A stretch of 48,129 nt of DNA from an uncultured Anaeromyxobacter sp. (GTDB lineage Bacteria; Myxococcota; Myxococcia; Myxococcales; Anaeromyxobacteraceae): NCBI GenBank assembly GCA_903904005.1, contig CAIVAR010000033.1, forward strand, positions 1-48,129, given 5' to 3'. The notes beneath the pieces are model-generated. The model searched no databases. It had not been told where the DNA came from and worked only from the letters and a program-made list of their open reading frames with translations. Below are positions 1 to 25,302 of the stretch, in pieces (positions within the stretch are counted from its first letter, which is position 1; each line of letters starts with the position of its first letter). The position numbers and the translations under genes are program-made.

Positions 1-3000
1 ACCGCTCGATTCGCTTCCCCAGCCGATCTACCCCGGCCGACAGCCTCCGCGTCCCCATGGCCCGTCCTCCCGTCCCTCGACAGGTCCGGACCCTACCCCG
101 GTGCCGCCCCCCGACTCACGCACGCTTGCCGAAGGGACACGGTGAACCCGCCCAACCTGCCCATGTTCAAGGGCGGGACCAAGCCGTTCTTCGGCGACTA
201 CATCGACGTCCAGGGCCCCGCCTTCGTGAAGAAGAACGGGAAGTGGGTCTTCAACACCGACTTCACCCCGGCGCCGATCTTCCACGCGGTGTGGACCAGC
301 AACGAGGACGTGAAGGCGCCCGCCGACGGGAAGTGGGACCGCTACGCGCCCATCAACGTGAACGGGAAGAGCCTCTTCGATCCCCTGGCGACCGTCGAGG
401 CCTGCACCGAGTCGACGGCGATGTACGCGGCCTCCCGCAACCAGAACATCTACACCGCCCGGATCACCGAGGGGCTCCTGGTCTCGACGCCGCAGAACAC
501 CAAGCCGCTCAGCGCCTCCTTCGTCCGCTCCTTCGTGATCGCGGCCACCAACGCCACGGGCGCGCCGAAGAAGGTCACCTTCTCCTTCGCGGCGCCCAAC
601 GGCGTGTCGGCCTCGTTCCAGGCCCTGCCCGGGGAGACGCTGGCCAACCTCCCGACCGTGACCGCCGACATCGCGCCGCACTCCACCGTGTCCCGCTCGC
701 TCTTCGTGAAGTCGTCCAGCGCCACGGCGACCCTCACGGCCACCGTGACGGAGGTGGGCGGCGCGCTCGCGTCCGGGTTCGTCCTGCTCAACCCGCCGGG
801 GACGATCCCCGGCCTGGTCGCGCCGGACGGTAGCGCGGCCATCGGCACCAGCGAGACCTACACCCCGATCCAGGTGGCGGCGAACCTGTCCAACGCGAAC
901 CTCTCGAACGCGAACCTCTCGAACGCGAACCTGTCCAACGCGAACCTGAGCAACGCCAACCTGTCGAACGCGAACCTGAGCAACGCGAACCTCTCGAACG
1001 CCAACCTCTCCAACGCCGCGCTCGCCAACCTGTCCAACGCGAACCTGTCGAACGCGAACCTCTCGAACGCCAACCTGTCGAACGCGAACCTGAGCAACGC
1101 CAACCTCTCGAACGCGAACCTCTCCAACGCCAACCTCTCCAACGCCAGCCTCTCCGACCTGAACTACGAGTTCCAGAACACCGGCAACACCAGCACCTCG
1201 TACGCGATCAAGATCGTGGGAGCGAAGCCCGCGCCCGGCGAGGTCCTCCAGCTCATCCTGGCGAGGACCTACACCACGCCCACCGCCGTCGGCTGCGAGA
1301 TCAAGGAGGAGCCGCACAACCACATCCTGGCCTCCATCGACGACGTGAGCCAGGCGGTGGTGCCCGACACCGATCCCGTGAACCCCGGCGTGGGCGACCC
1401 GTCGGTGGCCAACGCGACGCTCATCCTCGCCCCCGGCGAGAAGGCCCAGATCACCCTCCGCGGCAACGTCACGCTGCAGCGCATGGCCGAGATCGGGACC
1501 ACGCTGACGCCGTTCCCCCTCCCGCAGCGGACCCCCATCGGCGGCGCCCTGGGGAACACGCGGTACAACAACTTCAAGCGGACGATCTTCACCTGGACGA
1601 CGATCGACTACGACCCCGCGACGGGCGCCTTCAGCGCGAACGTCTGGGACGACTACACGGGCGTGACCGCCGGCTCGGTGACCTTCGTCGCCAACGGGAC
1701 GATCATGCTCGGCACCCTGCCGGTCGACTCCAGCGGGGCCACCTCGTCCTTCATCCCCAGCGGGCTGCCCTCCGGTGCGACCGTGGTGGCGTTCTACTCG
1801 GGCGCCTTCGACTGGCTGCCGAGCTCGGCCACCGCCACCTCTCCGGCCGTCGCCCTCGCCATCGACCCGCCGTCGGTGACGCTGCCCTACGGCGGATTCC
1901 AGCGCTTCCACGCCACCGTCACCGGCACCACCGACGATCGGGTGACCTGGTCGGTGGACGAGACCGGCGGCGGCAACATCGGCAACGACGGCGACGGGTT
2001 CTACACCGCGCCGTCCCAGGCGGGGACGTACACGGTCCGGGCCCGGTCGCGGTTCGACCTCACCCGGACGGCCACCGCCACGGTGACCGTCACCGCCCCC
2101 GCGCCGGTGATCACCGTCACCCTCACGGCGCCCACGCCGGCCATCGTCAACGGCCAGCAGGGGGTCCTCACGGTCGCCGTCGGCGGAACGACCAACAAGG
2201 CGGTTACCTGGACGGTGACGGCCGGTGCGGTCGGGGCGACGGTCACGTCGGCCACCCCCGCTTCCACGTCCGCGACCTTCCTGGCCCGGGACGTCGGTAG
2301 CTACACGGTCCGTGCAACCTCGAACCAGGACGCCAACGTCTTCGCCGAGACGACCTTCTCCGTGGGAGACGCAGGCACACCCGTGCAGCCGACCCTGGGC
2401 ACGAGCGGCGTCTACCAGGTCGGGGTGGTGGCCAACCAGCGTATCGCCCAGGTCGTCGCCGGGTGGTACGGCGGGACCTTCCAGGGTATCCGGGTGCCGA
2501 TGGCCTGTGCCGCCGGAACCCAGCTGACCGTCGAGGTCCAGGAGGTCACGAACGGCGTGCCGAACGGGATGGTCCGGGCCGGAGGCCGGAAGGTGATCGC
2601 CAACGCCCAGCCGCTGCTGCCCGACTTCCACGCCACGATCGACGGATTCCAGGCGATCTACTTCGACGCCTCGGTCGCGGCATGGCCGCCCTTCGCGGTC
2701 GTCTTCTCGGCGGTTGCCGGGACCCCCGGTAACGCCTGCGGCATCGTCGCCGGTCCGCCGGGGAACGCCTACGCGGGTGGCGACGCGTTCTACGACGACG
2801 TCACGGCGACGCACTGGATGCCGGTCGGCGCGGGCGTCTTCGACATCCCCTTCGAGGTGATGATGTCGGCCCCCGGCCTGACCGTCATCGGCGGTGACCT
2901 CTCGGGGTCGTTCCAGAACGTCGACGTCTACTACAACGGGGTTCCGCAGTCGGAGGGCGTCACCATCCGTGTGAGCGATGCCTCGGCCCCGGGCACCAAC

Positions 3001-3504
3001 TACGTCGATCTCGGCCTGGCGGGCAACGGCTACTACAACGGCGCCCTGCCCACCACCGTTCCCCCCGGTGGAACCATCGTCATGTCGGTCTCGCGGGGAT
3101 TCGAGCACGTGGTGGGAACGGCGATCGTTCCCGGCCAGCCCTCGGCCATCAGCCCGAACAACGACACCCTGCAGGTCTCGCTGCTCGATCCGATCCGCGT
3201 CACCTGGATCAGCGCCACCAACCCGCACGCCTTCAAGGTCTCGGCGCAGTGGAACGAGCTCATCGGCGGGGTCCCCGCTGGCTACGGACGCTTCGCGTAC
3301 GTTCCCGGCGGAATCGCCACCCGTGAGTACGTCATCCCGGCGGGAACCTACGGGTACATCGGGGCCTCGAACTGGGAAGCGCGTGTCTACAACTACAACT
3401 ACGGCTCCTTCACCGGGCCCTGCAACGGCTGCACGATGCCGCTCCGCGCCAGCGCCCCCGTCGAGATCAACCTGATCAACGTGGTGCCGCCGCCCGTCCC
3501 CTGA
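1..3504 (+). CDS. Large secreted protein: sialidase-like remnant, ANLSN pentapeptide repeats and Ig-like domains (5' partial)
   Basis: The reading frame is open from base 1, so the gene begins upstream of the window; the first GTG at 142 is probably internal. About 1167 residues are visible. The first 110 read like the end of a BNR/sialidase-type propeller (GDYIDV, then AVWTSNEDV). Residues 294-386 are ANLSN pentapeptides. Two bacterial Ig-like modules follow (about 621-701 and 703-790), rich in Thr and Val with TYTVRA and SYTVRA strand signatures, then a beta-rich C-terminal region of about 375 residues ending in VPPPVP. No membrane segment is visible, which fits export and a surface or extracellular location. 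Function is not known; a carbohydrate- or protein-binding surface role is inference. The long antisense open frame is a shadow of GC-rich codon use. Confidence 0.72.
880..1158 (+). repeat. ANLSN pentapeptide repeat block (15-bp units)
   Basis: Nine consecutive ANLSN units (880-1014), a 3-residue interruption AAL (1015-1023), eight more ANLSN units (1024-1143) and a final variant ASLSD. Protein repeats are exact but the DNA is not: Leu alternates CTG/CTC, Ser alternates TCC/TCG/AGC and Ala alternates GCG/GCC. This matches the pentapeptide-repeat consensus A(D/N)LXX, which in known families folds as a right-handed quadrilateral beta-helix; that fold is inferred here. Confidence 0.9.
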
Positions 3505-22767: not shown

Positions 22768-23157
22768 ATGGACGCGGGAAGAGCAGCGGGAGGGGCCGGC
22801 ATGGTGTTGCTCGCATGCGCGGCCCTGGCAGCGACGCCGCCACCGGCGGTGAAGGCGATCGAGGTGAAGATCCTGGACCACAGGACGGGGAAGCCGCTGC
22901 CGCGCCTGCCCGTCGAGGTGACGTGCAGCATCCCGATTCCGTGCCTTCGCCCGCCCTGTCCGCCGTCCGACCAGACGCGGTGGCAGGGGAGCACCGACGA
23001 CCAGGGCGTGCTCGCCTATCCCGCGAGCCTCGACGTGGAGGGGGCGGTGGTCTACGTCCACGCCGTGGGATCCGACTTCGCCGCCGACGTCCACGGGGCG
23101 GGAAAGCGCGACGCGCGAAAGCGCCCCATCCTGCTGCTGGAGCCGCCCGGGGAGTGA
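22768..23157 (+). CDS. Small secreted protein of unknown function, carboxypeptidase-regulatory-like
   Basis: 129 residues. A signal peptide is visible (GGAGMVLLACAALAATPPP). The mature part begins KAIEVKILDHRTGKPLPRLPVEV and ends with DDQGVLAYPASL and VYVHAVGSDF, a pattern of small Ig-like or carboxypeptidase-regulatory-like folds in which a GKPL turn is followed by conversion of ligands to strands; that is only a structural guess. Four cysteines near CSIPIPCLRPPC are unusual and may form disulfides. A good ribosome binding site (AAGGAA) precedes ATG 22768. First of three small secreted-protein genes in the same direction. Confidence 0.65.
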   Translation: MDAGRAAGGAGMVLLACAALAATPPPAVKAIEVKILDHRTGKPLPRLPVEVTCSIPIPCLRPPCPPSDQTRWQGSTDDQGVLAYPASLDVEGAVVYVHAVGSDFAADVHGAGKRDARKRPILLLEPPGE

Positions 23158-23218: not shown

Positions 23219-23449
23219 ATGAAGAGCGTTCGACTCGTGCTGCTTCTCGGCGGCGTCGCCACCGGGGCCCTCTCCGGCACGGCCTCGGCGGCGCCCGGCA
23301 AGAAGACCCCGGTTCCCTGGGTCGTCACCACCGGAACCCTCCGCTACACCGGCGGTGCCCCGATGGTCGTCACCACCGGCACCCTTCGCTACACCGGCGG
23401 CGCCCCCATGGTCATCACCACCGGCACCCTTCGCTACACTGGCCGTTGA
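23219..23449 (+). CDS. Small secreted protein built of 15-residue TTGTLRYTGGAPM repeats
   Basis: 76 residues: a clear signal peptide (to about TASAAPG), a short linker (KKTPVPW), and two complete and one partial copy of a 15-residue unit, V(V/I)TTGTLRYTGGAPM, ending the protein at LRYTGR. Each unit has two short beta-strands separated by Gly, so it may stack as a beta-sheet or be an adhesion or surface motif; I recognise no family. ATG 23219 comes after GCAGT with no strong ribosome binding site. It sits 15 bases before the next secreted-protein gene, so they are probably co-transcribed. Confidence 0.65.
   Translation: MKSVRLVLLLGGVATGALSGTASAAPGKKTPVPWVVTTGTLRYTGGAPMVVTTGTLRYTGGAPMVITTGTLRYTGR
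23321..23446 (+). repeat. Tandem 45-bp repeat inside the small secreted protein gene
   Basis: Units 23321-23365, 23366-23410 and a 36-base partial unit 23411-23446. They are almost identical at DNA level, differing by a few third-position changes, unlike the codon-scrambled block at 880-1158, so this expansion is probably recent. Confidence 0.9.
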
Positions 23450-23464
23450 TCGGAGACGACCCAC

Positions 23465-23996: not shown

Positions 23997-24293
23997 ATGA
24001 AGACCGCCGGGATCCGGGACCTCAAGGCCCACCTGAGCGCCTACCTCAGGGACGTGGCGCGCGGCGATGTCGTGCTCGTCACCGACCGGGGAGAGGTGGT
24101 CGCGGAGCTGCGGCCGCCCGGCACCGGCGAGAGAAGCCTCCCGCCCGCGGAGCCCCGGTACTGGCGGCTCGTCGAGCGGGGCCTCCTGCGTCCGGCGGCG
24201 GCCCCGTCCTCCGTCGACTGGAGCGCGGCACCGCGCGTCCGGCTCCGCGGCGGGACGTCGCAGGAGTTGCTCGACGCGGAGCGTGGCGAGTGA
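23997..24293 (+). CDS. Phd/YefM-family antitoxin
   Basis: 98 residues. The N-terminus (KTAGIRDLKAHLSAYLRDV) and the following DVVLVTDRGEVVAEL match the DNA-binding domain of the Phd/YefM family, which represses its own operon and neutralises the partner toxin. The C-terminal part (from PPGTGERS) is the expected toxin-binding tail. ATG 23997 has no ribosome binding site and lies at the predicted transcript start. It overlaps the toxin gene in GTGA. Pairing of a Phd-type antitoxin with a PIN toxin is well known. Confidence 0.88.
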   Translation: MKTAGIRDLKAHLSAYLRDVARGDVVLVTDRGEVVAELRPPGTGERSLPPAEPRYWRLVERGLLRPAAAPSSVDWSAAPRVRLRGGTSQELLDAERGE

Positions 24294-24712
24294 GGCGGCG
24301 GTACGTGGAGACGAGCGCGCTCCTGCGGGTGCTGCTCGACGGGGACGAGGCGCTGCAGCCCGGGCTGTCCGGCGAAGGTCTCGTCACGTCGGCCCTGACC
24401 TTCGTCGAGGCCGCGAGGGCCATCTCGCGTGCCCGGCGCGAGGAGCGGCTCGATGCCCGGGAGGCCCGTGAAGCGGAGCGGCAGCTGGCCGCCTTCGAGC
24501 GATCCTGCGACGTCGTCTCCCTGGGCGAAGAGGTGCTTCGGCGCGCGCGCGAGGACTTCCCCGTGGAGCCCGTCCGCTCGCTCGACGCGATCCACCTGGC
24601 TTCGATCTGCGTGCTCGACGACGAACTCGGCGCCCTGGACGTCGCGAGCACGGACGACCGGATCCGCGGCAATGCGGCGGCGCTGGGGTTCGTGGTGATC
24701 CCGACGATGTGA
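24290..24712 (+). CDS. vapC: PIN-domain ribonuclease toxin (VapC-like)
   Basis: 140 residues. PIN domain with the first acidic residue in YVETSALLRVLL (Glu instead of the more common Asp), the second in TFVEAARAI, and the last pair in RSLDAIHLASI and STDDRI. These acidic residues bind Mg or Mn and cut RNA, usually tRNA or rRNA, in VapC toxins. GTG 24290 overlaps the antitoxin stop. Target not predictable. The helical arrangement and length are normal for VapC. Confidence 0.88.
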   Translation: MRRRYVETSALLRVLLDGDEALQPGLSGEGLVTSALTFVEAARAISRARREERLDAREAREAERQLAAFERSCDVVSLGEEVLRRAREDFPVEPVRSLDAIHLASICVLDDELGALDVASTDDRIRGNAAALGFVVIPTM

Positions 24713-24798
24713 AGTTCTTGGGGCGCGGGCCGCGCTCCCTGTTGGGTCACGCCTCCGTCACCCTGCGGCAAGGCCCGGCATCTCGATTACCCTTCGAG

Positions 24799-25302
24799 AT
24801 GGACGCGCCCATGGATGACGGCCGCATACTGGAGATGAACACCGTCGTGCTCCAGGCCGCGGCCCGCGTGGAGTCCGCTGCGCAGGGTCTCTACACGGAC
24901 CTGGCCGGGCATTTTTCCTTCGACCCCCACCTGCGAAGGCTCTTCCTTCGCCTCGCGGCGGAGGAGGGGCAGCACGCGCTGCACGTCGAGTCGCTGGTCC
25001 GGCACTATCCCCGCTCCCTCTGGTCGAAGGATCTCGTGGGTCGGTACCTCAAGATCCTGGATGCGATGACCGACGAGATCGAGGCCAACCGGATGGCATT
25101 CCGGGAAAGTGCCGACTGCCGCCGTCCCGGGAGCGTGCTCCGGCAACTCTCGGACATGGAGACCCGCTTCAACCGGTTTCACGAGGTGGAACTGGCCAGG
25201 AGCGTCGAACCCAACGTGAACCGGTTCTTCGCGTCGCTCGCCCTGCAGGATGCGACCCACCGGGAGCTGCTCCAGATGGCACGGACGCGAATGGGGGCGT
25301 AG
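24799..25302 (+). CDS. Ferritin-like/rubrerythrin-type four-helix protein
   Basis: 167 residues, predicted all-helical. Metal-ligand candidates lie in ARVESAAQGLY, LAAEEGQHALHVESL, TDEIEANRMAF and DMETRFNRFHEVELA, with the EExxH pattern of rubrerythrin and ferritin-like diiron proteins. No rubredoxin domain or signal peptide is seen. The chosen ATG is at 24799. It may handle iron or peroxide, but neither is shown here. A perfect 8-bp inverted repeat lies 44 bases downstream. Confidence 0.65.
   Translation: MDAPMDDGRILEMNTVVLQAAARVESAAQGLYTDLAGHFSFDPHLRRLFLRLAAEEGQHALHVESLVRHYPRSLWSKDLVGRYLKILDAMTDEIEANRMAFRESADCRRPGSVLRQLSDMETRFNRFHEVELARSVEPNVNRFFASLALQDATHRELLQMARTRMGA

Follow-up and report, generated by a model that had tools for sequence, protein, structure and literature searches.

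The repeat gene described here lies in a window of 48,129 nucleotides, the whole stretch of DNA that was analysed, and is an open reading frame of 76 codons that runs from an ATG start to a TGA stop (Table 1). Its product is laid out as a probable signal peptide, assigned by eye without a predictor, followed by ten non-repeated residues (APGKKTPVPW), two copies of the unit VVTTGTLRYTGGAPM and a final copy, VITTGTLRYTGR. Start, stop, frame and signal peptide are all intact, and GC contents of 0.61, 0.65 and 0.86 at the three codon positions fit coding in the frame of the ORF. No lipobox cysteine was seen by eye at the signal peptide, and the protein as a whole contains no cysteine. Assuming cleavage after ASA, the array takes up 42 of about 52 mature residues, so the preliminary description, in which the repeats made up the whole mature protein, was right for most of its length but left out the ten residues that precede the array. 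The protein matches no family of Pfam, NCBIfam or PADLOC at E up to 1, and among PHROGs the only match is a family of unknown function (E 0.22). A literature text search with strings from the repeat units returned nothing relevant, with one unrelated Chlamydomonas match.

Table 1. Coordinates of the repeat gene, its parts and the partner gene in the window
Feature	Position	Strand	Basis
Exported repeat protein, 76 aa	23219..23449	+	ORF; paralogous array at G000:C164
Sec-type signal peptide MKSVRLVLLLGGVATGALSGTASA (probable)	23219..23290	+	By eye: basic start, hydrophobic core, A-x-A
Repeat unit 1, VVTTGTLRYTGGAPM	23321..23365	+	TRF; codon-shuffle test
Repeat unit 2, VVTTGTLRYTGGAPM	23366..23410	+	TRF; codon-shuffle test; 4 synonymous, 0 non-synonymous differences vs unit 1
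Repeat unit 3, partial (12 residues), VITTGTLRYTGR	23411..23446	+	TRF; codon-shuffle test
Exported partner protein, 160 aa	23465..23947	+	ORF; C164 homologue; predicted Ig-like beta-sandwich

The existence of a small secreted protein built of 2.8 copies of a 15-residue repeat, as first described, is borne out by the ORF, by TRF, which reports a 45-base period at 23320-23443 (2.8 copies, 92% matches, score 206), and by codon shuffling, in which the best period identity of 0.92 compares with a maximum of 0.61 in 2000 shuffles of the repeat ORF. The claim that the array grew recently fared differently. Units 1 and 2 encode the same 15 residues but differ at 4 of 45 bases. All four changes are synonymous, falling on 13.3 synonymous sites, whereas the 31.7 non-synonymous sites carry none; on this small number of sites the divergence is suggestive only and does not amount to a significance test. 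Units 2 and 3, compared up to the last glycine, are separated by one synonymous and one non-synonymous change (V to I), and are closer to each other than units 1 and 2. Because units 1 and 2 carry four synonymous differences behind an identical protein, recent growth alone does not explain the array, and the pattern suggests constraint or selection on the protein, or an older duplication. By eye, the side chains of VVTTGTLRYTG alternate in a way compatible with a strand, and G-G-A-P with a turn after it.

The second secreted gene that the preliminary description had placed 15 bases later is confirmed, the gap being 23450-23464. This partner gene is codirectional with the repeat gene, has a GTG start preceded by GGAG, and shows gene-like GC contents of 0.69, 0.56 and 0.91 at codon positions 1, 2 and 3; its product has a probable signal peptide and two cysteines, C74 and C136.

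A search of the same genome with the window repeat protein gave one other match above noise, at G000:C164:36220-36387 (E 1e-6; hereafter C164), and in a single BLASTP comparison the two arrays align at E 5e-11 with 48% identity over 44 residues. The C164 repeat protein, of 195 residues, has a probable signal peptide, then an N-terminal domain of the CC_3452 family (NF047636, 48.1 bits against a cut-off of 40; residues 28-114 on model positions 9-91 of 92), and then an array of four 15-residue units, GPVEFTTATVRYVGH, with small changes. The window unit VVTTGTLRYTGGAPM lies over the C164 unit EFTTATVRYVGHGPV in register, with no rotation, and their BLOSUM62 score of 37 is equalled by only 5 of 20000 shuffles of one unit. 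Both arrays follow the pattern x-(hydrophobic)-T-T-(G/A)-T-(L/V)-R-Y-x-G-x-x-P-(M/V), and the ending RYxGR is common to them. The window repeat protein itself stays below the curated 40-bit cut-off of NF047636, with no family at E up to 1. That no family could be recognised, as first stated, is accordingly correct for the ORF against Pfam, NCBIfam and PADLOC, but not for its paralogue.

Directly 3′ of the C164 repeat gene lies a gene for an exported protein of 137 residues, whose start overlaps the stop of the repeat gene in the junction CCATGA. The window partner matches this protein at E 2.2e-27 (45% identity over 109 residues), with nothing else in the genome below E 0.06, and an array gene stands directly upstream in both of the partner loci found, a pairing observed at two loci of one genome. 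The module is therefore present twice: the window version has the array by itself, and in the C164 version a CC_3452-family domain is joined to it. The neighbours of the two versions differ. C164 has a PAS histidine-kinase-like gene and an AraC-type gene, both identified by eye, and the window pair lies between a CheB/CheR fusion and a Phd/PIN pair. Since the pair recurs in the same genome among different neighbours, we regard the repeat gene and its partner as very probably a two-gene unit and not a chance neighbourhood. It could be argued that these are merely adjacent small ORFs, carried along in one segmental duplication that says nothing about joint function, as two loci in a single genome would allow; however, identities of 45% between the partners and 48% between the arrays make the duplication look old, with an adjacency that outlasted it, the other neighbours differ, and start and stop overlap at C164, so that we consider chance adjacency quite unlikely. 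The repeated pairing, the start-stop overlap at C164 and the export signals on both proteins suggest that the products act together outside the cytoplasm, with export and co-translation both likely from these sequence features. As for the earlier proposal of a new surface system, the recurrence of the pair beside other neighbours speaks for a system, but export is all that is indicated, and not a place on the surface.

The partner is probably immunoglobulin-like, its predicted structure resembling a beta-sandwich of that kind. An AlphaFold2 model from a two-row alignment has six strands and a mean pLDDT of 65.1, with about 70-85 for most of residues 51-150, 56 at residues 81-90 and low confidence in the N-terminal part. 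Foldseek against the PDB gave GH2 enzymes at a best E of 3.9e-3, and a second fold comparison gave 6quc_A as its best match (Z 7.9, rmsd 3.0, 107 residues), although a Z under 8 is middling by the tool and may reflect a common arrangement only. The partner resembles the Ig-like beta-sandwich of GH2 enzymes in its predicted six-strand sandwich (Z about 6 to 8 over some 100 residues) but differs in having neither a family-level sequence match nor an attached enzyme domain, and the likeness may be just that of a common arrangement. Among Ig family models, the window partner matches no Pfam family, and the C164 partner reaches PF00047 at E 0.26 (12.1 bits, below the cut-off of 21.8). In the alignment of the two partners, C, W and Y-x-C are kept, by eye, in Ig-like order; the two cysteines are conserved between both and are the only ones in either mature protein, which would fit one disulfide outside the cytoplasm.

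Beyond this genome the module was hard to find. A partner profile was matched in one of 195 genomes of the phylum, namely this one, and in none of the 194 others. An array profile was matched in 12 of 195 genomes at E 0.05 or better, and only the two loci of this genome were strong (1.3e-27 and 4.7e-24). The 12 matches in other genomes (E 0.003 to 0.0485) were rejected as relatives, since no 15-residue array was present in the 11 inspected at the match, the stretch inspected for the twelfth (L055) differing from the place of the match; matches in other genomes from a sequence search with the repeat protein were likewise rejected as weak (best E 0.00365). Absence of the unit from relatives, which the preliminary description named as a refutation, applies by half: the unit is conserved in the same-genome paralogue but is not convincingly found in the 194 other genomes of the phylum. 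Searches outside the phylum were either pattern-based, reaching close relatives only, or confined to plasmid and phage sets. In genome contigs, 539 stretches fitted the repeat-protein pattern and 106 the partner-alignment pattern, with none confirmed in either scan. Viral contigs held no relative of the partner or array alignments, phages none of the window partner, and plasmids none of either C164 protein, of another CC_3452 protein or of the array or partner of the window; three Rhodococcus recombinase matches in one plasmid search (E 5 to 10) were taken as chance.

In nucleotide comparisons, the CheB/CheR gene and the Phd/PIN pair that flank the window module both have matches among the family genomes, and the stretch between them, which has an own-genome nucleotide match to C164, finds only pieces of about 65 bases or less in the other 23 family genomes. 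Similarly, the kinase adjoining C164 has an 81% match in one genome of the genus; there the kinase is followed by a different gene and the pair is missing. Flanks that are matched where the pair is absent indicate that the modules were either gained in this lineage or lost from its relatives. This restriction, together with a C164 protein that combines domain and array and a window protein that has the signal peptide and array only, would also suit a history in which the window protein is the leftover tail of a CC_3452-type protein, drifting after loss of its domain, while the partner works alone. A drifting remnant would hardly be expected to keep units 1 and 2 identical in protein across four synonymous changes, nor to retain an intact signal peptide, start, stop and frame with gene-like codon-position GC, and we hold this explanation to be unlikely.

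The module is not a requirement of the CC_3452 family in general, because this genome has three more proteins with the domain, and they lack both array and partner. At E 0.01 or better, such domains occur in 3 of 193 genomes. This genome has four, three of which exceed the cut-off; a second genome of the genus has one that also exceeds it, and another genome has a weak one. Among 14 control genomes, Caulobacter vibrioides alone has one. Four cysteine columns are invariant in all five aligned CC_3452-domain proteins, including the C164 paralogue. The link to the module is that the domain precedes the same kind of 15-residue array in that paralogue; on the other hand, the window protein lacks the domain, the 92-position model does not cover the array, and four other proteins inspected in the genus are without one. 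Two of the family, L036 1459-2448 (+) and L040 1459-2571 (+), carry a long C-terminal domain in which they are 76% identical, and which in one of them has a faint CARDB resemblance (E 0.17). Homology between the partner and this C-terminal domain, a possible fusion link, was rejected at an hhalign probability of 0.1.

According to Table 1 of PMC3751524, the family namesake, Caulobacter CC_3452, is raised 2.52-fold when iron is low and 2.51-fold when fur is mutated; CCNA_03566 occurs in PMC3951458. This low-iron response is the one functional lead from the literature, and it concerns the CC_3452 domain, which the window protein lacks. It raises the idea of a periplasmic accessory of the iron or redox-stress response, and rubrerythrin-like genes do follow the window pair, at about 0.8 kb (window 24709-25302, +), and, immediately, a CC_3452-domain gene at G000:C56 (L042 4345-4815, -). 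However, the genome has 10 rubrerythrin-like matches, and hence their proximity to the pair may be chance; the nearest listed to C164 is some 8 kb away, the proximity was noticed post hoc, and the fold change of CC_3452 is small. Such a role for the pair seems to us decidedly improbable.

What the two products might do together can be put as follows. The first gene would supply a small exported protein made up, once mature, mostly of 15-residue units, and the gene directly downstream an exported single-domain Ig-like protein. Each unit would form a beta-strand-and-turn motif and dock, outside the cytoplasm, onto a single Ig-like partner. An array of three or four units would in this way gather several partners, and the CC_3452 domain of the C164 version would serve as an extra binding or anchoring part. 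One strand-like unit binding one Ig-like partner is the most economical inference. Taken as a whole, the reading of a two-gene exported module whose beta-strand repeats bind an Ig-like partner is a tentative proposal, which we place somewhat short of probable; docking is its least certain step and, on its own, doubtful. When the C164 repeat protein was folded by itself, without an alignment, the model had a mean pLDDT of 41.9 and unstructured repeats, and it lends no support to the beta-strand idea. A more specific form of the proposal would be a new kind of small exported docking system, in which a short strand-motif array of variable copy number, bare or grafted onto a CC_3452 domain, takes one Ig-like subunit per unit, perhaps by strand donation to the sandwich, from genes that are adjacent and probably coupled; this form, too, we think rather unlikely.

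Curli-type (CsgA) amyloid proteins are likewise small, exported and made almost entirely of short strand-like repeats. The array here differs in its 15-residue unit with T-T-x-T-x-R-Y, and neither the window protein nor the C164 paralogue matches curlin, ice-nucleation, antifreeze or other repeat families in Pfam at E up to 1. The spruce budworm antifreeze protein has a 15-residue coil. The period of 15 residues, with T-x-T in every window unit and in three of the four C164 units, could mark a small beta-solenoid whose TxT face binds water, ice or another regular surface, leaving the partner incidental or accessory, and PMC9418140 describes 16-residue ice-nucleation repeats as forming a beta-solenoid. 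Yet such a solenoid would have no more than 3 to 4 coils, Pfam gives no match to ice-nucleation or antifreeze families at E up to 1, the C164 protein model, of low confidence, is not a solenoid, and the pairing with the partner would go unexplained. A solenoid of this kind is very improbable.

If the array docks the partner, its copy number would set the count of Ig-like subunits gathered outside the cytoplasm, and a protein of about 52 residues would make a simple scaffold. The C164 duplicate offers a ready comparison, its CC_3452 domain being the first functional handle on an otherwise nameless pair. Should docking prove false, the pair would still be a clean example of lineage-specific exported genes.

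Several features near the pair were also recorded. An exported 129-aa protein with no Pfam match is encoded 61 bases upstream of the repeat gene (window 22768-23157, +), and has only two weak matches among the 194 other phylum genomes (E 7.6e-5 and 4.9e-4); its membership in the module is unsupported, for tblastn against L043 finds nothing corresponding at C164 (best E 0.52). Downstream, window 23997-24712 (+) encodes a Phd/YefM-like antitoxin (29.0 bits, just below the 29.8 cut-off) and a PIN-domain protein with overlapping ends, a pair with 79%, 78% and 72% DNA identity in three family genomes. Further away, an ORF of 1120 codons (142-3504, +) contains, at window 880-1145 and flanked by other segments, an extended series of NLSNA pentapeptide-type repeats in about 18 copies of a 15-base unit.
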